A DNA stretch of 64,000 nt from Thalassotalea agarivorans (lineage in GTDB: Bacteria > Pseudomonadota > Gammaproteobacteria > Enterobacterales > Alteromonadaceae), in assembly GCF_030295955.1 (NCBI RefSeq), contig NZ_AP027363.1, positions 62,001 to 126,000 of the forward strand, given 5' to 3'. The position numbers and the translations under genes were made by a program. Shown here one piece after another: positions 8,296 through 59,908 of this stretch (position 1 is its first letter; the number at the start of each line of letters is the position of its first letter). The notes beneath the pieces were generated by a model. The model ran no database searches, was not told where the DNA came from, and worked only from the letters and a program-made list of their open reading frames with translations.

Positions 8296-9006
8296 TTGAA
8301 CAAAAGCTTAGCCACAAATCTTATTGCCTTGGCCGCGCTACTTGCAGGCTTTTTGCTAGAACAACACATTGTATTCACCGTTGGCTTATTCGCCCTTTCC
8401 GGGGCTGTGACTAATTGGATAGCCGTGCATATGCTATTTGAAAAAGTTCCGTTTTTGTATGGCTCTGGTGTCGTGCCAGCGCGCTTTGAAGAGTTTAAAG
8501 CCGGTATCAAACATTTGATGATGACCCAGTTCTTTACCGAGCAAAACATTGATCGATTCCTCTCTACAAAAAGTGGTGATGCCGCTGCTATTGACCTGCA
8601 AGGGATTATCCAAAAAGTAGACTTGTCGCCGGCTTTTGACAAACTGGTGGAGGTTATCGAAAACAGTAGCTTTGGCGGAATGTTAGCAATGTTTGGTGGT
8701 AGTGAAGCCTTGCAACCTATGCGTGAACCTTTTGTAGAAAAAATGCAACAGGCATTGGCTGAGATAACAGAAAAAGACGACTTTGCTGAACTTGTAAGAG
8801 CCGAATTAGAACAGCCTAATATACTTGATAATATGCAGCAAAAAGTCGCTGATATTATTGAGCAACGGTTAAACGAATTAACGCCGCAAATAGTGAAAGA
8901 CATTGTGCAGGATATGATACGAAAACACTTAGGTTGGCTCGTTGTTTGGGGCGGCGTGTTTGGCGGTTTGATTGGCTTAATAGCGGCATTAACCACAGGC
9001 TTTTAA
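8296..9006 (+). CDS. DUF445 family membrane protein
   Basis: A protein of about 236 residues. It has an N-terminal hydrophobic helix (LATNLIALAALLAGFLLEQ), a second helix followed by TNWIAVHMLFEKVPF typical of DUF445, a long charged amphipathic middle and a C-terminal transmembrane helix (LVVWGGVFGGLIGLIAAL). No biochemical role is established. The start is uncertain: TTG at 8296 has AAGGA at 8284-8288 with 7-nt spacing and gives the family-like NKSLATNLIAL. ATG at 8242 would add 18 polar residues and has a GGAG only 3 nt away. A 245-codon open frame on the opposite strand is a shadow. Confidence 0.75.
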   Translation: MNKSLATNLIALAALLAGFLLEQHIVFTVGLFALSGAVTNWIAVHMLFEKVPFLYGSGVVPARFEEFKAGIKHLMMTQFFTEQNIDRFLSTKSGDAAAIDLQGIIQKVDLSPAFDKLVEVIENSSFGGMLAMFGGSEALQPMREPFVEKMQQALAEITEKDDFAELVRAELEQPNILDNMQQKVADIIEQRLNELTPQIVKDIVQDMIRKHLGWLVVWGGVFGGLIGLIAALTTGF

Positions 9007-9200
9007 TTGGTTTTTTTTATGGCTTAAAGACGTGTAAAGATCGAAGCGAGCTAAGTCATTTTAAAAAAGCATGAATAACTCGAAAAATTATCTGTTTCGG
9101 TATTACTTGTTACTCTGATTTGGGGTATGCTTTCGCTTTACGTCACACCGCAAGGCGTGGCCTTTTTTGAACACTTAATAAATGCAACAGGAAAACAATC

Positions 9201-10391
9201 ATGTTTGGTAGTTTACAAGCGTTACCAGCAGACCCTATTTTAGGACTTTTGGCAAAATATCGTGAAGATACAAATCCGCAAAAAATCGACTTAGGTGTTG
9301 GTGTATATAAGGATGAATCTGGACACACAGCGATATTAGACTGCGTTAAAAAAGCAGAACAACATCGCTTGGAAACTGAAGACACTAAAGTTTACATTGG
9401 CCCAACAGGATCGCCATTGTTTAACCAAACAATGAGTGAGCTTATTTTTGGTGCAAGCCACCCTGTGCTTTTATCAAACCGTGCACGTACAGTTTCGGCG
9501 CCAGGTGGCACCGGTGCTTTGCGCGTAGCGGGTGAATTTATTAACAACGTAAAGTCTGGTGCAACGATTTGGGTGAGCAACCCAACGTGGGCAAACCACA
9601 CAGGTTTGTTTGAAGCGGCTGGCTTAGAAGTTAAAACATACCCGTACTATGATTACGAGAACAAGTGTTTAGACTTCGACGGCATGCTGGCGCAATTGAA
9701 GCAGTTAAGCAGTGACGACGTTGTTTTATTACATGCATGTTGTCACAACCCTAGTGGCATGGATTTATCGCAAGAACAATGGCAACAAGTCGTTGAAGTA
9801 GCGAAATCAGTTGGTTTCTTACCTGTTATCGATATGGCATATCAAGGTTTTGGTGACGGCTTAGACGCTGACGCTTATGGCCTTCGTTTAATGGCTGAGT
9901 CTGTGGATGAACTCGTGATTTGTAGTTCTTGTTCGAAAAACTTCGGTTTGTACCGCGAACGTATTGGTGCGTGTACTGTTATTGCAGCAAGTGCAAGCGC
10001 AGCTGATGTTGCAAATTCTGTGCTGTTATCGACGGTACGTTGTATCTACTCTATGCCACCAGCGCATGGTGCAGCGATTGTAGAAACGATTCTAAGCAGC
10101 GAAGAATTAACGGCACAATGGCATCAAGAACTTGCTGAAATGCGTGATCGCATTAATGGCAATCGTAAGCTAATTGTAGACAAGCTTGTTGAAAACGGTG
10201 TAACACGCGACTTCTCATTTATTACGCGTCAAAAAGGGATGTTTTCATTCCTAGGTATTACCCCAGAGCAAGTACAGCAGCTACAAGACGAGTACTCAAT
10301 TTATATGGTGGGTTCTAGCCGTATGAGTATTGCAGGTATCGCCAATAGCAATGTTGATTACCTAGCAGCGTCAATTGCCAAAGTATTGTAA
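9201..10391 (+). CDS. Aspartate/aromatic amino acid aminotransferase (class I)
   Basis: A 396-residue PLP enzyme whose numbering matches E. coli AspC. The PLP lysine is Lys246 in SSCSKNFGLYRERIG, the PLP phosphate/ring contacts fall in PGGTGALR and DMAYQGF (211-217), and the motif HNPSGMD is present. It moves amino groups between aspartate or aromatic amino acids and 2-oxoglutarate. AspC and TyrB are close paralogues and I cannot assign one safely. The ATG has AGGAAA upstream. The 194-bp gap before it holds the presumed promoter, and a GC-rich terminator follows. Confidence 0.88.
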   Translation: MFGSLQALPADPILGLLAKYREDTNPQKIDLGVGVYKDESGHTAILDCVKKAEQHRLETEDTKVYIGPTGSPLFNQTMSELIFGASHPVLLSNRARTVSAPGGTGALRVAGEFINNVKSGATIWVSNPTWANHTGLFEAAGLEVKTYPYYDYENKCLDFDGMLAQLKQLSSDDVVLLHACCHNPSGMDLSQEQWQQVVEVAKSVGFLPVIDMAYQGFGDGLDADAYGLRLMAESVDELVICSSCSKNFGLYRERIGACTVIAASASAADVANSVLLSTVRCIYSMPPAHGAAIVETILSSEELTAQWHQELAEMRDRINGNRKLIVDKLVENGVTRDFSFITRQKGMFSFLGITPEQVQQLQDEYSIYMVGSSRMSIAGIANSNVDYLAASIAKVL

Positions 10392-36771: not shown

Positions 36772-37022
36772 AGCCAACACAACGAGCATTGCAACATGAC
36801 CGATTCCCCATTGAGGTTTGCCGCTAGTGTTTTTTGATGATCACGCATAAGTTCTTCATGGACGAAGAACAAGGTGAAATAGGACAGGGATGTGCTATTG
36901 AGACGGTGCGTCGACATCATTAAAAAACAATAGCGGGGTTTTCAAATCGAATTTGGGGCGTGGGGGTATGTCCTAGGGGTGTCACGCAACACCCCTGGAC
37001 TATTACTCCTTTAGGAGTGATA
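36772..37022 (+). repeat. Structured 250-bp repeat, copy A
   Basis: This stretch matches, in opposite orientation, 53617-53866 at roughly 90% by eye. It holds a hairpin GTTCTTC/GAAGAAC around 36850-36870, a perfect 8-bp stem AGGGGTGT/ACACCCCT (36975-36996) and a stem ACTCC/GGAGT (37005-37018). Imperfect inverted repeats (around TTTTTTGATGATCA and CATCATTAAAAAA) bracket the inner part, as in a MITE. No credible gene lies within. It occupies most of the 580-bp gap between ldhA and the next gene. Confidence 0.75.
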
Positions 37023-37058
37023 GATAAATTGCAGATCAAACCGTGAAATTTAAAACAG

Positions 37059-51284: not shown

Positions 51285-51509
51285 TTAAAAGCGCTCTATT
51301 TGCTCAATATCGACAATCTTTTGCAGTTGTGTTGTTAATTTAGAAAGACACTTATCGCTTTCTAATACTAATTTTATCTGCCAATGGCTATTTTCAAGCG
51401 TCATATCGGCGCCAACGACGTCAAACCCACGATAGCGAGAGACCTGTAAAATACGTTCTAAAACAGTGCTTTCCTGCGCTGCTTGAATGTTTAGCTGATA
51501 ACTATTCAT
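51285..51509 (-). CDS. ilvM: Acetolactate synthase II small subunit
   Basis: A 74-residue ACT-domain protein, the size of E. coli IlvM and shorter than IlvN or IlvH. YQLNIQAAQESTVLERILQVSRYRGFDV shows the ACT pattern across residues 4-31. It activates and stabilises the catalytic subunit IlvG. Start and stop overlap ilvG by one base, indicating translational coupling and stoichiometric production. Confidence 0.88.
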   Translation of the reverse strand: MNSYQLNIQAAQESTVLERILQVSRYRGFDVVGADMTLENSHWQIKLVLESDKCLSKLTTQLQKIVDIEQIERF

Positions 51510-53164
51510 TAGGTACTCTCCAACATTTTGTCGTTTGCGGTTTCAGGTGGTACTAGTGGCCAAACATTTTCTAGGGCGTCGATACACACTTGTAATAAAT
51601 ATGGTCCTTTATGCGCCAACATGTCGTCGATTGCGTCTTCTACTTCGACTTTTTCGGTTACGCGTTTTGCTTGCATGCCAAACGCTTGCGCTAGCGCGAC
51701 AAAGTCGGGGTTATCCGACAGGTCGGTTTCGCTGTAGCGTTGGTCAAAAAATAGTTGTTGCCACTGCCTAACCATGCCAAGTCGTTCGTTATCTATCAGC
51801 ACAATTTTTACCGGTAAATTAAAGCGTTTTATGGTGCTTAGTTCTTGTACGTTCATCATGAACGAACCGTCGCCAGTAACAGCAATAACCGTGTCATTTG
51901 GGCGCGATACTTGAGCACCAATCGCTGCTGGCAAACCAAAGCCCATAGTGCCAAGGCCACCGCTAGTTAAGAAGTTTTTAGGGTTAGTAAAAAGCATGTG
52001 CTGTGCTGCCCACATTTGGTGTTGGCCAACATCAGTCGTTACTACTGCATTTTCGCCCATTTTAATGCTAAGTTGCTTCAACATAGCAGGAGCAAAAATG
52101 CCTTTATGTGGCGTTTCATATTGCCACTTAAAATCACGCTTATATTGTTCGCAACGCTCACGCCAGTCGTTGATATCTAGCGGGATCGCTAACGCGTTTA
52201 AATTGACCTTTAAATCGCCCAACATGCTGGCGTCAGCTACACGGCGTTTGTTCACTTCAGCAGGGTCGATATCAAGGTGAATTATTTTGGCATTTGGCGC
52301 AAATTCTGCCAATTTTCCAGTAACTCGATCATCAAATCGCGCGCCGACAGCAAGCAGTAAGTCCGCCTCTTGTACCGCTAAATTTGCTGCTTTGGTGCCA
52401 TGCATCCCTAACATGCCCAAGTAATATGGACAAAATGGATTGGCGGTGCCAAGCCCTTTCAATGTAGATACGCTAGGCATGTTGGTGGTTTTCATAAAAG
52501 CGCGCAATTCTGGTACCGCTTCAGCCATTCCCACGCCGCCGCCGACATACAAAATTGGCTTCTTCGCTTGTGCCAGTAAAGCCAGTGCTTTGCCTGCATT
52601 TGCTGGCTCTTTACTTTGTTTTTGAGCATGACCTAAAGGAAACGCTGGAGCGTCAAATTTAGCGATTTGTAAATCTTTTGGAATATCAATCAACACCGGA
52701 CCTTGGCGACCGCTAGTCGCTATTTCAAACGCTTTGGCTACGATGCTTGGAATGTCTTCGGCGCGTTTTACTTGGAAACAATGTTTGGTGCAGGCAAGTG
52801 ATAAGCCGATAATATCAACTTCCTGAAAGGCGTCGCCGCCCATTGCTGCGGTGGCTACTTGGCCAGTTATGGCGATAACTGGAATAGAATCGGCCATAGC
52901 ATCTGCAAGGCCCGTGATTAGGTTGGTAGCACCTGGGCCTGATGTGGCGAAACAAACACCGACTTTACCGCTAGCTCTGGCATAACCCACCGCAGAAAAT
53001 GACGCACCTTGTTCGTGGCGACACAAAAAATGTTTGATCTCACTGTCGTAGAGCGCATCGTAGATTGGCATGATAGCGCCGCCGGGATAACCGAATACGT
53101 GCGCAACACCATGATGCTGCAATGCTTTTAATAGAGCCTGACTTCCTGTGATTTGCTGTGCCAT
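51509..53164 (-). CDS. ilvG: Acetolactate synthase II large (catalytic) subunit
   Basis: A 551-residue thiamine-diphosphate enzyme that makes 2-acetolactate or 2-aceto-2-hydroxybutanoate. The catalytic Glu is in [21 protein letters not shown], and the ThDP-Mg motif is [12 protein letters not shown]. The frame is intact, unlike the frameshifted ilvG of E. coli K-12. It is the first structural gene after the ilvL leader and attenuator and is coupled to ilvM. Confidence 0.94.
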
Positions 53165-53390: not shown

Positions 53391-53616
53391 GCTTTTTTTA
53401 GAACAAACTTATACCTTTTTGGGTTTTTACTCTAAAAAGTGGTTATAAGGGAGGGGGTAGTGCTCATGGTTATTTCGCTTTGATGGGGCACGTCACTGTT
53501 GTTCATAGGAACGAGGGACACGCAGGCGAGCTGCTGGGAACAGGGGACGTGAAAAATGTCGTCATCCCGACCTTATCGCGAAACATTCTTAGTTAAACTG
53601 AGAGTACTTGCGTACA

Positions 53617-53866
53617 TATATCACTCCTAAAGGAGTAATAGTCCAGGGGTGTTGCGTGACACCCCTAGGACATACCCCCACGCCCCAATTCGGTTTGACG
53701 ACCCCGCTATCATTTTTTAATGATGTCGATGTACCGTCTCAATAGCACATCCCTGTCCTATTTCACCTTGTTCTTCGTCCATGAAGAACTTATACATGAT
53801 CATCAAAAAATGCTATCGGCAACCCTCAATGGGGACACGGTTATGTTGCACTGCTCGTTTTGTTTG
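53617..53866 (-). repeat. Structured 250-bp repeat, copy B
   Basis: Inverted relative to copy A at 36772-37022, with the same internal hairpins: ACTCC/GGAGT (53623-53636), AGGGGTGT/ACACCCCT (53645-53666) and GTTCTTC/GAAGAAC. It fills most of the 600-bp gap between the ilv promoter and the next gene. Upstream, about 53508-53540, is a short segment resembling 46449-46482. Confidence 0.75.
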
Positions 53867-53926
53867 CTTAGTTTCGATGTTTAAGGGCTTTATAGCCAAA
53901 ATACGATAGAGTGCGTCGCCTCGTCA

Positions 53927-53945
53927 TTCCGCACTTGATACGGAA
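53927..53945 (-). repeat. REP-like hairpin 4 (minus orientation)
   Basis: Read on the minus strand, TTCCG...CGGAA is followed by TGACGAGG, the tail shared by the other REP-like hairpins. Confidence 0.55.
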
Positions 53946-53990
53946 CTCATTTTATTTTGCGTTGTTTTTCTGATTTACTAAGATTTTAGT

Positions 53991-54359
53991 TTGGAGCGTT
54001 ACCGTCTATTAGGCGGGTGTCTCTTGGTTGGTCGTATCAACAAAAATTTATTTGCCTTGGATGAAGTCAATTTTTTCAGTGTTATTTTAGTTTTGTTTTT
54101 AGTTCATGTTTTATGCGCTTGTATCGTATTCGTGCTAATTCTAAAGAGAATCGATGGTTTGAAAAAGCTAAAGCGCAACAAGTATATTGTCGCGCATATT
54201 GATAGGCTTGAAAGCTACAAATTGTTAGTCCTAGTGTTGCCAGTTATTGGCCCAATCATTGGTTGGGCTATATCGAACGGGCTTGACACTGGAATCACTG
54301 AAACTGGATTAAAAGTAAATGATTCTGGTGGAACTAGTGCAGATTTCGATTCGGAGTAA
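53991..54359 (+). CDS. Hypothetical small membrane protein (island gene 1)
   Basis: Up to 122 residues with two hydrophobic segments (about 28-52 and 78-94), a basic loop (KRIDGLKKLKRNKY) and an acidic tail. No family recognised. The start is uncertain: TTG 53991 is the first in frame, and TTG 54024, preceded by GGCGGG, is an alternative. It opens the accessory island between ilvL and comM. Confidence 0.5.
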   Translation: MERYRLLGGCLLVGRINKNLFALDEVNFFSVILVLFLVHVLCACIVFVLILKRIDGLKKLKRNKYIVAHIDRLESYKLLVLVLPVIGPIIGWAISNGLDTGITETGLKVNDSGGTSADFDSE

Positions 54360-54405
54360 TAGCTTTTATAGATGGGTCTTAACTTACAATGGTTGAAGTA
54401 TCATC

Positions 54406-54597
54406 ATGAATAAAAACAAACATGCGATTGTTGTTCCATTTGGGCTGATTATCGGTACAACGATAGGACTTTTTCTAGATATTTATCAGATAAATGTCTT
54501 CGGAGACGTAGGTTTGGGCATTGTATTTATGCCTTTGGTAGGCCTGTTTTTAGGTATTGTAGTTAGTCACTTTTTAGATAAGAAATCTAGTTTATAG
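54406..54597 (+). CDS. Hypothetical small membrane protein (island gene 2)
   Basis: A 63-residue protein made almost wholly of two Gly-rich hydrophobic helices (about 8-26 and 34-56) with a basic C-terminus. It starts 46 bp after the previous gene. The ribosome site is weak. No family recognised. Confidence 0.5.
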   Translation: MNKNKHAIVVPFGLIIGTTIGLFLDIYQINVFGDVGLGIVFMPLVGLFLGIVVSHFLDKKSSL

Positions 54598-54653
54598 ACT
54601 GGCTGTAAGCGATAACCATTTATCGCCCATCAGTCCATCATTCATCAATTCAC

Positions 54654-54683
54654 AGCAAACGTAACGAGCAGTGCAACATAACC
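54654..54683 (-). repeat. Edge fragment of the 250-bp repeat, copy D
   Basis: Thirty bases matching the outer edge of copy B (53837-53866, reverse complement) at about 28 of 30 positions, starting AGCAAAC and containing GAGCAGTGCAACATAACC. Confidence 0.6.
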
Positions 54684-54808
54684 AAGACATAACAATAGGT
54701 GAGTACAGGGACTTGCAGGCGCTTTGTGGTTATGAGTTTGATGAGCAACTAGAGGCTAACGACTGGGTTAGCCAGAGTTACGATAACAATGATTGGTTGT
54801 TTGATTAG
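54671..54808 (+). CDS. Possible 45-residue acidic peptide
   Basis: GTG 54671 opens a 45-codon frame rich in Asp, Glu, Gln, Asn and Trp (for example SYDNNDWLFD at the end). The composition looks like protein rather than noise. The start lies inside the copy D repeat fragment, there is no clear ribosome site, and the end overlaps the next gene on the other strand. It may be a remnant of a gene cut by the repeat. Confidence 0.3.
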   Translation: MQHNQDITIGEYRDLQALCGYEFDEQLEANDWVSQSYDNNDWLFD

Positions 54809-55767
54809 GCGAGACCTATATCTGCTGGGTGAGACACTTTTACTATGCTTGTTGGGGAGTTTGTATCTTGAGTGTTATATGACAATCTAAAGCCCTGTTC
54901 TCTGGAGCATACAATCTTCGCTTTGGAGTTAAAAGAAAGCGTTAGGAAATCTTCAATGTAAGATGGGGGCTTTGAGTTAGGCGTAAACTTCATAACATCT
55001 GTGTACAAACTTGCAAACTCAGTAAACGGATTTAAGAAGGAATACAAGTGAGGGGCTTTACTTGCTTGGAGGCTCTCTGACCCTGTAACAGCCTCATTAA
55101 CATAGTGCTGCAACTTGACCCAGCATGTGTTGGAGTAGCTTTTGACACCTGTATAATTCTCAAGGTTTTTTATAGATTCCTGAATCTTAGAAGCCATATT
55201 AAAAATAGCTATTCTAGTCTCTTCATCATCTTGCTTAGAATCTAATTTCATTAGTCCATGTATAAATTCAAAAGCCTCCTCATAGTATCCCTTTATTTCT
55301 AGTTTTACAGAGTCGTCAATCGCTAAATGCCCATCCTTGGCTAGAGGAAAAAACACATTGTGAAGCATTCTTGCATCCATCATTTCATAGGTTTTTGCAG
55401 CATACTTAGGCTTTGCGTTGTGGATGTATTTTTCGAACTCTTCGAGATGCTTGTAATAGTTGCTGAAGTTGTTCTGGACTTGAGATAACTCTATTTGTCT
55501 TTTGGTTTGCTCGCTTCTGTGATTGGCTGCAAAGACAGCTATGATAGGGATAAGCAAGGAGAGGACACCTAAAGGTACTTTAAAGTTAGATACAGAAACG
55601 TTAAAGCAAGAAGATGTAAAGCAACTAGAGTAATCTCCGTTAATCAGAATAAGGCAAGCAACGACAACAGCTGAAATTATTACAAGAACAAACGTACACC
55701 TAACAACAGCAAGCTCAAAGAATGCTTTATCTGGGTCAAACCAATTTGTTTTCTTAATATCTGTCAT
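54805..55767 (-). CDS. Membrane-anchored protein of unknown function (island gene 3)
   Basis: A 320-residue protein. Two N-terminal helices (about 23-43 and 66-86) flank a short Cys-containing loop, then a charged helical stretch (HRSEQTKRQIELSQVQNNFSNYYKHLEEFEKY) leads into a soluble, probably cytosolic helical domain. I recognise no named family, though the SEQT..QI....QNNF.NYYKH pattern is the kind seen in membrane-anchored accessory or defence-island proteins. Codon use and AT-rich character differ from the ilv genes beside it. It is 105 bp downstream of the next minus-strand gene. Confidence 0.6.
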   Translation of the reverse strand: MTDIKKTNWFDPDKAFFELAVVRCTFVLVIISAVVVACLILINGDYSSCFTSSCFNVSVSNFKVPLGVLSLLIPIIAVFAANHRSEQTKRQIELSQVQNNFSNYYKHLEEFEKYIHNAKPKYAAKTYEMMDARMLHNVFFPLAKDGHLAIDDSVKLEIKGYYEEAFEFIHGLMKLDSKQDDEETRIAIFNMASKIQESIKNLENYTGVKSYSNTCWVKLQHYVNEAVTGSESLQASKAPHLYSFLNPFTEFASLYTDVMKFTPNSKPPSYIEDFLTLSFNSKAKIVCSREQGFRLSYNTQDTNSPTSIVKVSHPADIGLA

Positions 55768-55872
55768 CTCAATTCCTATAGTCCTTTATCGGATTGGGTA
55801 TGTTAACTGAAGATAGCTACTTATTTTTAAAGGGATTGCTCACCGTTAGAATAAACCGTTACGGTTGGAGGT

Positions 55873-56859
55873 CTATGACCACACAGCTTTTACTTTATTG
55901 TTTTGAAGAATGTCCGTTAGGAACCTTTTGCCTTCGTCAGTAAGTTTGTAGTAATTAAAACCGTCTTTCTTATCTAATTTTTCTAAATATCCAATAATAC
56001 GAAGTTTATCTAAGGCAGCATTTACAGCTGAAGTAACAAGACCTTTATTCTTGCCATTCACATTTATATCAAACCCAACTTCTTTTACAGTTTCGTCTTC
56101 TGACCTCATTGCACGCTCTAAAAGCACTGAGGAAAGCTCTATATCCTTTGCGTGATTTGGGTTCTCTCTGGATAGATTTAGTTTATCTGCTACTGAATTT
56201 CTCAAATAGTGCTGACCATCAGCCGTTGTGAAGTACCTTCTAACAGACTCGTTGTACTCCATTCTATCCTGCTTACTCTCTTTTGGTGTAGCTGACTTCG
56301 ATGCAGATTTAATTATGTCTTTAAACAGTTCACTAGGAGGAACAGCTGGGATATCGGTTCCATTTGTCAAATCATTATCTTTTTCAGACTCTTCGCTACG
56401 AACCAAGCTTTGTAGGGCTTCTATCTGCTCATCTTTCTCTCTAAGCTTTTCCTTAAACTCCTTTTCCTTTGTATTCATTAAGTTGATTAGAGCTGCCTTT
56501 TCCGCTTTGGATATTGGCGCTAGGTTGGGAACTGACCATCTTGAAAGAGACTTACCTAAATTCTCTGCAATCGTCCATAAGCTAATAGCAATCTCTTTTA
56601 CTAGAGGGAAGAGGGTTACGTACAAAAAGGAAACAAGTAATGGGTAATAAAAGTTTGTATTTATATCAGAATAAACTGACTCAATATGGGTAATTTTTTG
56701 AATAGTTGTACCATCTCCTGTCATGAAGAAATAGATACCTTTCCAGTTGAAAAAAATCCAAGCAACTAAGAAGCCACTGGTGAAGGGGTTTACAATACGC
56801 TCTTTAGCGCCATCTATGATTGAGTCAAACAATCCTTTTACTGAACTTAAGAAATCCAT
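55873..56859 (-). CDS. Membrane protein with coiled coil and C-terminal winged-helix-like domain (island gene 4)
   Basis: A 328-residue protein. Two or three N-terminal hydrophobic helices (about 28-47 and 70-95, with NPFTSGFLVAWIFFNWKG) are followed by a charged coiled coil (residues about 120-155, KEFKEKLREKDEQIEALQSL), a linker, and a C-terminal segment LDKLRIIGYLEKLDKKDGFNYYKLTDEGKRFL that has the pattern of a winged-helix domain ending in a wing and TDEGKRFL. No named family recognised. Divergent from the T5orf172-like gene across 116 bp. Confidence 0.6.
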   Translation of the reverse strand: MDFLSSVKGLFDSIIDGAKERIVNPFTSGFLVAWIFFNWKGIYFFMTGDGTTIQKITHIESVYSDINTNFYYPLLVSFLYVTLFPLVKEIAISLWTIAENLGKSLSRWSVPNLAPISKAEKAALINLMNTKEKEFKEKLREKDEQIEALQSLVRSEESEKDNDLTNGTDIPAVPPSELFKDIIKSASKSATPKESKQDRMEYNESVRRYFTTADGQHYLRNSVADKLNLSRENPNHAKDIELSSVLLERAMRSEDETVKEVGFDINVNGKNKGLVTSAVNAALDKLRIIGYLEKLDKKDGFNYYKLTDEGKRFLTDILQNNKVKAVWS

Positions 56860-56975
56860 GTCTTTGATATTATTGTTGGTTTGAGTTGATTATGACATAA
56901 GTGATTGAAATGTGTATACCTTTACATTTGAATTGGGTGTAATCTAGGAATAGATTTGAAGTAGAGATAGTGATT

Positions 56976-57488
56976 ATGAAGTCTGGTTTTTTATTTGTCT
57001 GTAGACACCCCTCCGATCCATTGTTAATTAAAGTTGGTTATACAACTGGAACAATAAAGAAGGCTTTAGAGCGCATTAACACTAATGCTTCAAAAGAAGC
57101 TGGTCAGATAGTTAAAGATACAGGTAAGGACTGGAAAGTAAGCAAGAAGATTAAAGTTGATGACCCTTCTTACGCTAAGTCTGCTTTTTGGGATGCTTCT
57201 AGCCAACATGCTTTACGAGGAAACTTTGATGTATCTCGTATGGCTGATGAAGAAGTTGATATGTGTCTCAATGAAGCTCAGAAAGCTAGGAGAAAGGTAG
57301 AGACCAAGCCTAAAAGAGACAAGAACTGGATGCTACAGCAATTGGAAGGGACAGGAATTAAACTGATAGGGAATTACAGAGGTCTTATCACAAGAGTAGA
57401 GTTCGAATACCCTGATGGAGAGCGTTTTGTAGAAGTCCCTGCAAGACTTGTTCAAATGCTTAACAGACTTAGGGAAGAAACAGAATAG
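56976..57488 (+). CDS. T5orf172 / GIY-YIG-like domain protein (island gene 5)
   Basis: About 170 residues. The N-terminus GFLFVCRHPSDPLLIKVGYTTGTIKKALERINTNA fits the T5orf172/GIY-YIG pattern, in which a strand with VYV-like residues is followed by KIGYT and a helix with R. A basic middle (KARRKVETKPKRDKNW) and a small C-terminal domain follow. GIY-YIG proteins are often nucleases of mobile elements or defence systems, but activity here is inference. Most arginines use AGA or AGG codons, unlike ilvC or comM nearby. I chose ATG 56976; GTG 56970 is two codons earlier. Confidence 0.6.
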   Translation: MKSGFLFVCRHPSDPLLIKVGYTTGTIKKALERINTNASKEAGQIVKDTGKDWKVSKKIKVDDPSYAKSAFWDASSQHALRGNFDVSRMADEEVDMCLNEAQKARRKVETKPKRDKNWMLQQLEGTGIKLIGNYRGLITRVEFEYPDGERFVEVPARLVQMLNRLREETE

Positions 57489-57621
57489 ATAGCCTCAGGA
57501 AGGGATATAAACGGCTCATATTGAAGATCTTATCTGTTAGATGATCTACCACCTTGGAAAGGGCGTACCTCTGGGAAATCGTTTTATATTAAGCCGTTGT
57601 TTTTAGGTTTGCTTGAGAGTT

Positions 57622-58083
57622 CTACAAGTTATACTTGGTTTTCAATGACTTCATTATGAAGTCAACGCTGTAAGAAAATCCCTCTGGCTTTTCACTGAAG
57701 CACATTATTGTGTTCGAAGTGCTTGGAGCAGCTATTGAGTATGTATATCCACCTGATGTAGTTGTTTGAGCTACGCCACTGTAATAGTTGGTTGATGTTG
57801 TTTTAGGGGTGGTTACAGTGCTTTGAGTTACTTGTTGTGATGAACCTAAGATAATGAAATGACTACATCTATGCTGCCATGAGATCTCTGCGCTTCTTAA
57901 TAAGGCAAAATCTTTAGCTCTTTGAATATCTGTAGAACCATCACCCTGAAAGCTAACAGAGAACACTTTATCTCCTAACTGAGATGAGCTGTAACCGGTA
58001 CCTGAAGCCCAAGAATACTTAGCATACGGTGTTGCACACGACGCAATGAGAAAAACAGAAGCAATAGCTATAGCGTATTTCAT
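57622..58083 (-). CDS. CC0125/CC1285-like family lipoprotein (island gene 6)
   Basis: A 153-residue protein with a lipoprotein signal (MKYAIAIASVFLIASC). The mature start contains TGYSSSQLGDKVFSVSFQGDGSTDIQRAKDFALLRSAE, the pattern of CC0125/CC1285-type lipoproteins of unknown function. A Thr/Ser-rich low-complexity stretch (about 86-120) follows. It is convergent with the GIY-YIG-like gene and is the last gene before comM. Confidence 0.6.
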   Translation of the reverse strand: MKYAIAIASVFLIASCATPYAKYSWASGTGYSSSQLGDKVFSVSFQGDGSTDIQRAKDFALLRSAEISWQHRCSHFIILGSSQQVTQSTVTTPKTTSTNYYSGVAQTTTSGGYTYSIAAPSTSNTIMCFSEKPEGFSYSVDFIMKSLKTKYNL

Positions 58084-58248: not shown

Positions 58249-58387
58249 GACGAGTCAAAACCTTAGCACTTCGGTCTTAGCACTTAAAAAGCACTTTAAA
58301 AATGCTGTGCTACACTTTTTAGTTAGCGAATATTGACGCTATTCAAGTTTTTACAAGGAGTGTAAAAACAATAACATGGAGGTTTGT

Positions 58388-59908
58388 ATGGCACTTGCCT
58401 GTGTATATTCTAGGGCCCGTCTTGGGCTACATTCACCACTTGTCACCATAGAAGTTCATTTAGCCAACGGTTTACCGGCATTTAATATTGTTGGTTTGCC
58501 TGAAACATCGGTTAAAGAATCAAAAGATAGGGTGCGTAGCGCCCTGATAAATTGCGGCTATGAATTCCCAAGTAAACGTATCACGGTTAATTTAGCGCCC
58601 GCTGATCTACCCAAAGAAGGCGGAAGATTCGACTTGCCTATCGCTGTCGGCATACTTGCGGCATCAGGGCAATTACCCGCGCATTGCACGCAAGATGTTG
58701 AATATGCTGGCGAGCTAGCATTGTCTGGCGAACTAAGACCCATTGTTGGCGAAATACCGTTAGCGTTAGCATCAGCAAAGGCTGAGCGGCCGTTGTTCAT
58801 GCCTTATCAGAATGCATCAATGGCTAGTCGTGTTAGCAATGCAACCATCTTTGGGGTCGAACATTTAGTACAGTTGTTTCCTCATTTTATGGGGCAAAAG
58901 CAGCTATTGCCGCAGGAACATGAGCAAGTAGTAGAGCAGCCGAGTTACTGTAGTGAGGATATGGCCGATGTTATCGGCCAGCCACTAGCAAAGCGTGCAC
59001 TTGAAATCGCCGCAAGTGGCAATCACAACTTACTTTTTGTGGGCCCGCCAGGCACAGGTAAAACCATGCTAGCAACTCGGCTTAATAGCATTTTGCCACA
59101 CATGACAGAAGCTGAAGCAATAGAAACCTCAGCAATCCGATCGATTACGCAACACGTGGAAGCGAATAATTGGTACAAAAGACCGTTTCGTTCACCACAT
59201 CATACTGCTTCAGCGGCAGCACTCATTGGCGGTGGCAGCCACCCTAAACCGGGAGAAGTTAGCTTGGCGCACAATGGCGTATTGTTTCTTGATGAATTGC
59301 CAGAATTTGAACGCAAAGTGCTTGATGTGCTGCGCGAACCGATGGAATCTGGCGAGGTTACTATTTCACGAGCGCTGCAAAAACAAACCTTTCCTGCCAA
59401 TTTTCAATTAGTGGCGGCGATGAATCCTTCGCCTACCGGATTTTACAATGACAACCGTTCAACACCTGAGCAGGTATTACGTTATTTAAATCGCCTATCG
59501 GGCCCGTTTTTAGATCGTATTGATATTCAAATAGAAGTGACAAGGCTGCCTAAGGGGCTTTTTGGCGATACTGCAGTGCAAGAAGAGTCGAGCGCTTGTG
59601 TGCGCGAACGTGTGCTGCAGTGTCGAGAGATACAAATAGCGCGGCAAGGGATGCCGAATGCAGATCTTAGTGCTAGCGATATTCGTCAATACTGCATGCT
59701 GTCAAAAGCTGATCATGAATTTCTAGAACTTGCTGTTGAAAAACTTGGTTTGTCGACGCGCACGCATCACAAGATTATTAAAATTGCCCGTACCATCGCG
59801 GATATGGCAAAGCACACAAAGATTAATCAACAGCACCTAATGGAGGCGCTGTCATACCGAGCTATGGATAGAATTTTAAGGCATTTAACCGAAGCGGTAT
59901 CAGCGTAG
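58388..59908 (+). CDS. comM: YifB/ComM family Mg-chelatase-like AAA+ helicase
   Basis: A 506-residue protein. The N-terminal LonC-like domain starts LACVYSRARLGLHSPLV, the AAA+ Walker A is FVGPPGTGKTML, Walker B is VLFLDELPEFE, and a C-terminal Mg-chelatase domain closes with YRAMDRILR. In Vibrio and Haemophilus ComM is a hexameric helicase that extends branch migration during natural transformation. I chose ATG 58388, with GGAGG at 58378-58382; an ATG at 58376 overlaps that ribosome site. In E. coli this gene adjoins ilvL. Confidence 0.92.
   Translation: MALACVYSRARLGLHSPLVTIEVHLANGLPAFNIVGLPETSVKESKDRVRSALINCGYEFPSKRITVNLAPADLPKEGGRFDLPIAVGILAASGQLPAHCTQDVEYAGELALSGELRPIVGEIPLALASAKAERPLFMPYQNASMASRVSNATIFGVEHLVQLFPHFMGQKQLLPQEHEQVVEQPSYCSEDMADVIGQPLAKRALEIAASGNHNLLFVGPPGTGKTMLATRLNSILPHMTEAEAIETSAIRSITQHVEANNWYKRPFRSPHHTASAAALIGGGSHPKPGEVSLAHNGVLFLDELPEFERKVLDVLREPMESGEVTISRALQKQTFPANFQLVAAMNPSPTGFYNDNRSTPEQVLRYLNRLSGPFLDRIDIQIEVTRLPKGLFGDTAVQEESSACVRERVLQCREIQIARQGMPNADLSASDIRQYCMLSKADHEFLELAVEKLGLSTRTHHKIIKIARTIADMAKHTKINQQHLMEALSYRAMDRILRHLTEAVSA

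Follow-up and report, generated by a model that had tools for sequence, protein, structure and literature searches.

Do three neighbouring genes of Thalassotalea agarivorans, two encoding membrane proteins and one a GIY-YIG-like protein, make up a single anti-phage system, or did they come to lie side by side independently? The genes are found in a 64,000-nucleotide (nt) stretch of contig NZ_AP027363.1 (positions 62,001 to 126,000 of the forward strand; hereafter the window, in which all coordinates are given unless a locus is named) of a 3.35 Mb, one-contig genome. A preliminary description, made from the DNA letters alone, had delineated three open reading frames (ORFs) and read them as a possible defence-type module. 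The ORFs themselves were borne out: gene A (54805-55767, minus strand) encodes 320 amino acids (aa), gene B (55873-56859, minus strand) encodes 328 aa, and gene C (56970-57488, plus strand) starts either with GTG at 56970 or with ATG at 56976. We give an even chance to the reading that A and B are independently acquired superinfection-exclusion or abortive-infection genes which became neighbours by happenstance. The evidence favours separate prophage-type membrane genes, A and B each being of a type found as a lone gene in temperate phages.

The module as such failed the co-occurrence test that the preliminary description had named for it. At E ≤ 0.001, gene A is found in 15, gene B in 12 and gene C in 1 of the 295 genomes of the order, and only the host genome holds more than one of the three. 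No relatives of B or C (blastp, E ≤ 0.01) were detected in the stretches fetched around 48 loci of A relatives, and no relatives of A or of T5orf172 proteins in those around 47 viral loci of B relatives; these stretches measure approximately 4 to 17 kb, and more distant or very diverged partners would escape. Flanks are shorter at some of these A loci, and the set was not deduplicated (L035 and L074 are apparently one contig, and L096 and L097 are near-identical). Given the lack of co-occurrence in the genomes and in both sets of flanks, a conserved three-gene module was rejected.

Gene A, judged by its sequence, is a distant relative only of the retron Ec48 effector family. It matches the profile NF038235 (retron Ec48 family effector membrane protein) over residues 20-159 with an E value of 5e-9 and 36 bits (curated cut-off, 65 bits), and the PADLOC profile 2TM_IV with an E value of 8e-9; Pfam yielded nothing above chance. 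When the family members were scanned singly (E ≤ 1e-3), 15 of the 31 matched 2TM_IV and 9 matched NF038235, leaving 16 and 22, respectively, without a match. The corresponding alignment (A6) comprises the window protein and 30 relatives, with L083 and L097 (the latter near-identical to L096) left out. Residues P65, Q87, N99, F101, N103, K106, H107, E109 and F111 are invariant across it, and H83, R84, S85, Q98, E110 and K113 are at least 90% conserved; the window protein retains every invariant residue. Conservation is concentrated in a helix following the second transmembrane helix (residues 83-113, HRSEQT...QNxFSNYYKHxEEFEK; 55429-55521, minus strand), and the C-terminal half is divergent. 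In the structural model (predicted local distance difference test, pLDDT, 82; predicted template modelling score, pTM, 0.74), the two membrane helices are followed by a helix at 72-123, and the rest of the chain is helical as well. The model has the layout of Ec48-type effectors, namely two N-terminal membrane helices and a helical part predicted to be cytosolic. Comparison of the model with the PDB (best Z 6.8) and BFVD (best E 0.66) returned nothing informative.

In Ec48, a reverse transcriptase (RT) is encoded beside the effector; the host genome gave no match to RVT_1 in a search for which the Escherichia coli control was positive. Nor did the window contain any Rfam match at gathering thresholds, although whether Rfam models the Ec48 msr-msd was not checked. 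On these two results, gene A was rejected as part of a retron. Six of the 14 other genomes with an A relative have an RT match, none of them within 240 kb on the contig of that relative. In a further set of 34 genomes and records, to which L081 does not belong, seven gave an RT match, namely six of the 12 genomes and one of the six phage or plasmid records, with none among the 16 viral contigs; in the phage or plasmid record the RT is 34 kb from the A relative, and the RT contigs of the six genomes could not be mapped to the A loci. At the 48 loci, some with shorter flanks, ORFs of 180 aa or longer lying no more than 6 kb from A were searched for the YxDD motif; 12 candidates resulted, none of them RT-like by eye.

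Nine phage records with A relatives were recovered by tblastn, eight of them from Vibrio cyclitrophicus, and in all four of the PM2-like Vibrio prophages (Vinavirales) that were read, out of eight, the stop codon of a CI-type repressor is followed by the A relative without a single intervening base. The repressor gene located 5' of the A relatives encodes Peptidase_S24 and Phage_CI_repr domains (Pfam), and from this repressor-adjacent position the A relatives would be expected to be expressed in the lysogen. In one of these PM2-like prophages (PQ189340.1), a gene beside the integrase (L019, 1316-2338) carries the depositor's annotation PD-T4-5, a defence name, so that both ends of one small prophage would be occupied, one by an A relative and the other by another possible defence gene. 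A viral-contig scan with A alone as seed yielded one relative.

At other loci, the neighbours of A change. A phage integrase gene is the upstream neighbour in L067, L092 and L093 (overlapping the A relative by 11 nt and 4 nt in the first two and separated from it by 129 nt in the third), an Abi_C protein is encoded upstream in the closely similar loci L085 (1660-2493) and L086 (3282-4115), and a DUF2971 protein in L060 (727-1596) and L088 (3261-4103). Tandem A genes occur in L082 and L094, and further neighbours belong to the Pfam families NYN/OST-HTH, DUF4062 and SH3_3 or carry a DnaJ-type zinc motif; at the remaining loci, neighbours were judged by strand and length, and a few by Pfam. Since the partners vary between loci, A probably acts alone or with changing partners, and the DUF2971 and Abi_C genes are possible changing partners. 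One gene in L064 (6200-7120), of either the DUF2971 or the Abi_C type, was grouped with those directly upstream of A relatives.

Gene B belongs to a family with members in dozens of viral contigs. Residues 4-93 match phrog_4780 (E 6e-17), to which PHROGs assigns no function, as do all 17 proteins of the B alignment (A7; the window protein and 16 viral relatives). Residues 1-107 (56539-56859, minus strand) form a two-helix membrane domain that is common to lone prophage genes, and the invariant columns of the alignment include A18, R21, N24, P25, F30, W34, F37, N38, W39, P73 and P85. Forty-seven loci came from a viral-contig scan seeded with the window protein and three phage- or plasmid-type relatives, with confirmation by L021, a relative from a Klebsiella phage; the same scan with B alone as seed found no relative. 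As judged with a simple ORF caller, ORFs on the opposite strand flank the B relative on both sides at 38 of the 47 loci, on one side at 6 and on neither at 3. The family thus shows the lone opposite-strand placement of moron-type genes, and the window copy itself lies outside a prophage. Relatives were found in tailed phages, lambdoid ones among them, on an E. coli plasmid of phage-like character, in a filamentous Vibrio phage, where the gene lies on the same strand as most others, on a Leptospira plasmid with a DUF2971 gene downstream, and on a Vibrio aerogenes plasmid, following a type I restriction-modification system and two GmrSD-type genes. Across 33 distinct B proteins, mean pairwise identity is 50-79% for residues 1-160 and 13-24% for residues 161-264 (gaps counted as differences); a variable end of this kind would be expected of a recognition part.

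Like A, B opens with two hydrophobic helices followed by helical parts, in its sequence as in its model, in agreement with the membrane anchors that the preliminary description had proposed for both proteins. The model of B is poor overall (pLDDT 65, pTM 0.28), confident at residues 31-100 and fair at 281-310. Its helix at 116-165 is long, and residues 272-320 (55900-56046, minus strand) form a winged-helix-like end, features which correspond to the coiled coil and winged helix anticipated there. For the C-terminal end, PDB comparison retrieved PadR, LmrR and AF1382 chains (Z 6.2-6.5 over 78-89 residues), matches that the comparison tool rates as weak, with eS10 ribosomal proteins (Z 5.9) tying with them within 1; residues 274-320 also match phrog_2440, a transcriptional regulator, with an E value of 8e-5. 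Comparison of the model with BFVD gave nothing informative (best E 0.30). When the B profile was compared with PDB sequences, 139 matches were obtained at E ≤ 1 (best 6.5e-6); they were set aside because they fall on the coiled coil, as were tape-measure PHROG matches of single B relatives.

Gene C was described as GIY-YIG-like, and it does appear to be a divergent relative of the T5orf172 proteins. The Pfam T5orf172 model gave an E value of 0.13 and 13.2 bits, below the cut-off of 20. A profile of eight T5orf172-type proteins, C excluded, scored C at 22.8 bits versus 8.6 for the best of 1000 shuffles; this profile combined L177 with seven phage proteins (out of 194 records), and the score is flattered because likeness to C was what had led to L177. 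With 44 and 34 bits, L177 (E 0.0035 as a match to C) is a genuine T5orf172/MUG113 protein, and it aligns with C residues 4-115. Gene C retains the GF.F and VGYT motifs, and has about 9 inserted residues compared with the T5orf172 sample; in the second half of the domain, the E (7/8), H (8/8) and E (8/8) of the sample are replaced by K, a gap and G. Given these replacements of family-conserved residues, C is probably not an active nuclease. No further match to C was obtained at E ≤ 0.001 in 369 genomes of the class. The best match outside the host, L176 (E 0.0012), was taken as chance, for it covers C residues 79-170 and is a GspL-like protein by eye. Phages provided no match to C, and a viral-contig scan with C alone found no relative.

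The three genes lie between genes that we take, from their sequence, to be ilvG (51509-53164, minus strand) and comM (58376-59908, plus strand). comM is present in all 118 genomes of the host family; its ilvG side was fetched in 40 of the 117 relatives, with better comM matches and longer contigs preferred, and ilvG adjoins comM in 30 of these, the other 10 having no ilvG there. The gap between the two genes measures 348-630 nt in 26 of the 30 relatives, compared with 5211 nt in the host genome (53165-58375). None of the ORFs in the host interval, namely A, B, C, a lipoprotein gene and two small ORFs, has a tblastn match (E ≤ 1e-3) in the 30 corresponding regions of relatives, and the GC content of 53616-58083 is 38.4% (A 38.2%, B 37.0%, C 39.5%) versus 42.5% for the whole window. 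Because of the gap length, the lack of matches and the low GC content, the stretch is very probably an acquired insertion. Its limits are approximate; it would measure roughly 4.6-4.9 kb and carry accessory genes that evolve independently.

The insertion proposed in the preliminary description was thus borne out, and the hot spot was not confirmed. Longer gaps occur in 4 of the 30 relatives (1137, 2113, 2115 and 2735 nt), and their contents, judged by eye without a family search, are a histidine kinase with a response regulator, a chemotaxis receptor, an AraC-type protein with a GyrI-like protein, and a small channel-like membrane protein. With only these four exceeding 1 kb and none of the contents defence-like by eye, a defence hot spot between ilvG and comM was not retained. 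Within the host interval, B and A lie on the same strand 105 nt apart and could be co-transcribed, and C diverges from B. Promoter-like and terminator-like sites are about as frequent as in shuffled sequences (14 versus 13.4 and 5 versus 3.7, respectively). Of the 51 window ORFs that reach 90 aa, 30 were scanned with PADLOC (E ≤ 1e-5), and A alone among these gave a match.

The remainder of the interval includes two small hydrophobic ORFs on the plus strand, which presumably belong to the acquired stretch, one of 122 aa (53991-54359) with no family match above chance and one of 63 aa (54406-54597) with no match above a curated cut-off. A CC0125/CC1285-family lipoprotein is encoded at 57622-58083 (minus strand; NF047637, 70.3 bits, cut-off 40), and no defence role is suggested for it. 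On the left side, a dispersed repeat of approximately 253 nt occupies 53616-53868 (plus strand); counting this copy, the genome contains 16 matches to it, full or partial, of which 8 cover at least 246 of the 253 positions, and a second copy in the window is found at 36772-37025. The final 30 nt of the repeat recur in inverted orientation at 54654-54683. For two inverted arms (53839-53879 and 54643-54683), derivation from an integron or cassette was considered and not established; the left arm overlaps the repeat end and the right arm contains a partial inverted copy of the repeat. An open frame of 47 codons with no start at its head (54665-54808, plus strand) ends where gene A ends on the opposite strand and looks like the tail of a broken gene. 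In some relatives, comM is in two pieces, 18-34 kb apart in G006, G340, G344 and G366, approximately 4 kb apart in G332 and 7 kb apart in G329, which suggests insertions into comM in those genomes.

If A and B are separate exclusion genes, they would probably be expressed in the lysogen and serve exclusion there. A would then be an inner-membrane protein with cytoplasmic N- and C-termini and would perform the Ec48 effector role without an RT and multicopy single-stranded DNA (msDNA). As msDNA cannot be the trigger here, the variable C-terminal helical part of A is the likely sensor, responding to a phage product or to damage; the conserved helix after the second transmembrane helix would relay the signal to the two membrane helices, which might assemble and depolarise or permeabilise the membrane, ending the infection. 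B may be a sensor or DNA-binding protein tethered to the membrane, where it would use its coiled coil and C-terminus to recognise incoming phage DNA or protein, in the manner of AbiP and PdpSau; C is probably a DNA-binding, nuclease-dead T5orf172 protein. The label defence-type fits A, given its kinship with the Ec48 effector and its repressor-adjacent prophage copies, and is plausible for B, given the lone opposite-strand placement and variable C-terminus of its family and the relative that follows restriction-modification and GmrSD-type genes; extended to a three-gene system, it did not hold.

Several considerations weigh against separate exclusion genes. The NF038235 score of A (36 bits) lies under the cut-off of 65, and the chromosomal relatives of A and B are mostly unassigned to prophages. 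In a member of the host's family, a B-type anchor is joined to a GGDEF domain (L049 in G263, 8780-9868; E 4e-29; the motif reads GGESF), so the anchor is not specific to defence. Three defence-type genes side by side might be more than chance, and joint regulation of A, B and C is possible, given that B and A are 105 nt apart on one strand and that B and C are divergent. Anatomy, homology, prophage contexts, insertion and the missing co-occurrence come from direct observation, whereas we infer membrane topology, expression in the lysogen, anti-phage activity and every mechanistic step.

Some of these observations would suit other explanations. B could be a membrane-bound regulator or a general signalling protein, in which case A alone may be defensive and the rest would be passenger DNA. 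Its winged-helix-like end and the occurrence of the same anchor with a GGDEF domain are consistent with this; however, the 47 relatives in viral contigs, 38 of them lone opposite-strand genes, and the variable end argue otherwise, and we consider this explanation unlikely. Alternatively, the genes could be decayed or selfish passengers of a lost mobile element, devoid of present function, as the dispersed repeat on the left side of the stretch, the broken-gene-like tail at 54665-54808 and the loss of family-conserved residues from C might indicate; yet A and B are intact ORFs and A keeps the invariant residues of its family, which makes such decay about equally unlikely. Least probable, despite the adjacency of the genes, the shared strand and close spacing of B and A, the divergent C and the common low-GC insertion, is one lineage-specific anti-phage system in which C senses phage nucleic acid, B couples this signal to the membrane and A kills, because 0 of 294 other genomes hold more than one of the three genes at E ≤ 0.001, no partner was seen in the fetched flanks of the 48 A and 47 viral B loci, and C is without another relative at this threshold in the 369 genomes of the class.

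The independent acquisition of separate genes, which we prefer, has a broader version that we advance tentatively, regarding it as somewhat doubtful. A would be a member of a widely distributed family of immune effectors that stand alone and are in part carried by phages; either the Ec48 retron would have taken its toxin from this family, or the family would have escaped from the retron. The two membrane helices and the HRSEQT...NxFxNYYKHxEEF core would be the killing and switching part, with the C-terminal half swapped for different triggers, and the B family would be a second, unnamed prophage exclusion family with a fixed anchor and a variable recognition end. If so, control by RT and msDNA would be one of several ways to restrain the same effector. 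Should A work without a retron, the Ec48 toxin family would be wider than retrons, and its trigger could be approached in a one-gene system, for which the repressor-adjacent prophage copies offer natural material. The B family, present in dozens of viral contigs with no PHROGs function, would be a common unnamed exclusion factor. In the accessible portion of the open-access PubMed Central (PMC) literature, we found neither RT-less Ec48-type effectors nor the B family treated in any paper, which is no proof of novelty. These two families are the parts of the locus worth following, whereas a new three-gene system is unsupported; unless co-occurrence data bear it out, adjacency within an acquired patch is no ground for reading genes as one system.

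C aligns with T5orf172/MUG113 GIY-YIG proteins over the first 115 of its residues and keeps GF.F and VGYT, but differs from them by its score below the cut-off, the insertion of about 9 residues and the K, gap and G in place of E, H and E. SNIPE (PD-lambda-1) is a membrane-bound GIY-YIG nuclease with a DUF4041 domain, and demonstrates that membrane-tethered GIY-YIG domains can act at injection (PMC13190303). The likeness lies in membrane proteins beside a GIY-YIG-like domain, whereas here these are separate polypeptides rather than one chain of membrane helix, DUF4041 and GIY-YIG. Neither A, B nor C has a DUF4041 match up to an E value of 1 (Pfam), PADLOC has no match for B or C, and a split SNIPE-like system was rejected for want of a DUF4041 match and because C is without the family-conserved residues. 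AbiP and PdpSau are described as membrane-anchored nucleic-acid-binding abortive infection proteins (PMC10127798). B shares with them a membrane anchor and a putative nucleic-acid-binding end, and is likened to them by layout; PdpSau has one helix and an OB-like fold, compared with two membrane helices, a coiled coil and a winged helix in B.

For A, two comparisons are pertinent. The rexAB genes of lambda exemplify the repressor-linked exclusion genes of temperate phages. A relatives likewise lie directly behind a CI-type repressor in all four prophages read, a likeness of position, and the window copy of A has no repressor beside it. Prophage-mediated immunity has been reported in non-tailed temperate vibriophages, with no exclusion gene named in the accessible text (PMC9966536). 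From the retron Ec48 effector (PADLOC type IV), A differs in its NF038235 score below the cut-off, in the lack of an RVT_1 match in the genome and in its divergent C-terminal half. The Ec48 effector damages the membrane once triggered. The retron is reported to respond to inhibition of RecBCD (PMC10162544, PMC11676413, PMC9952470). What A has in common with this effector is the profile match and the two-helix membrane layout.

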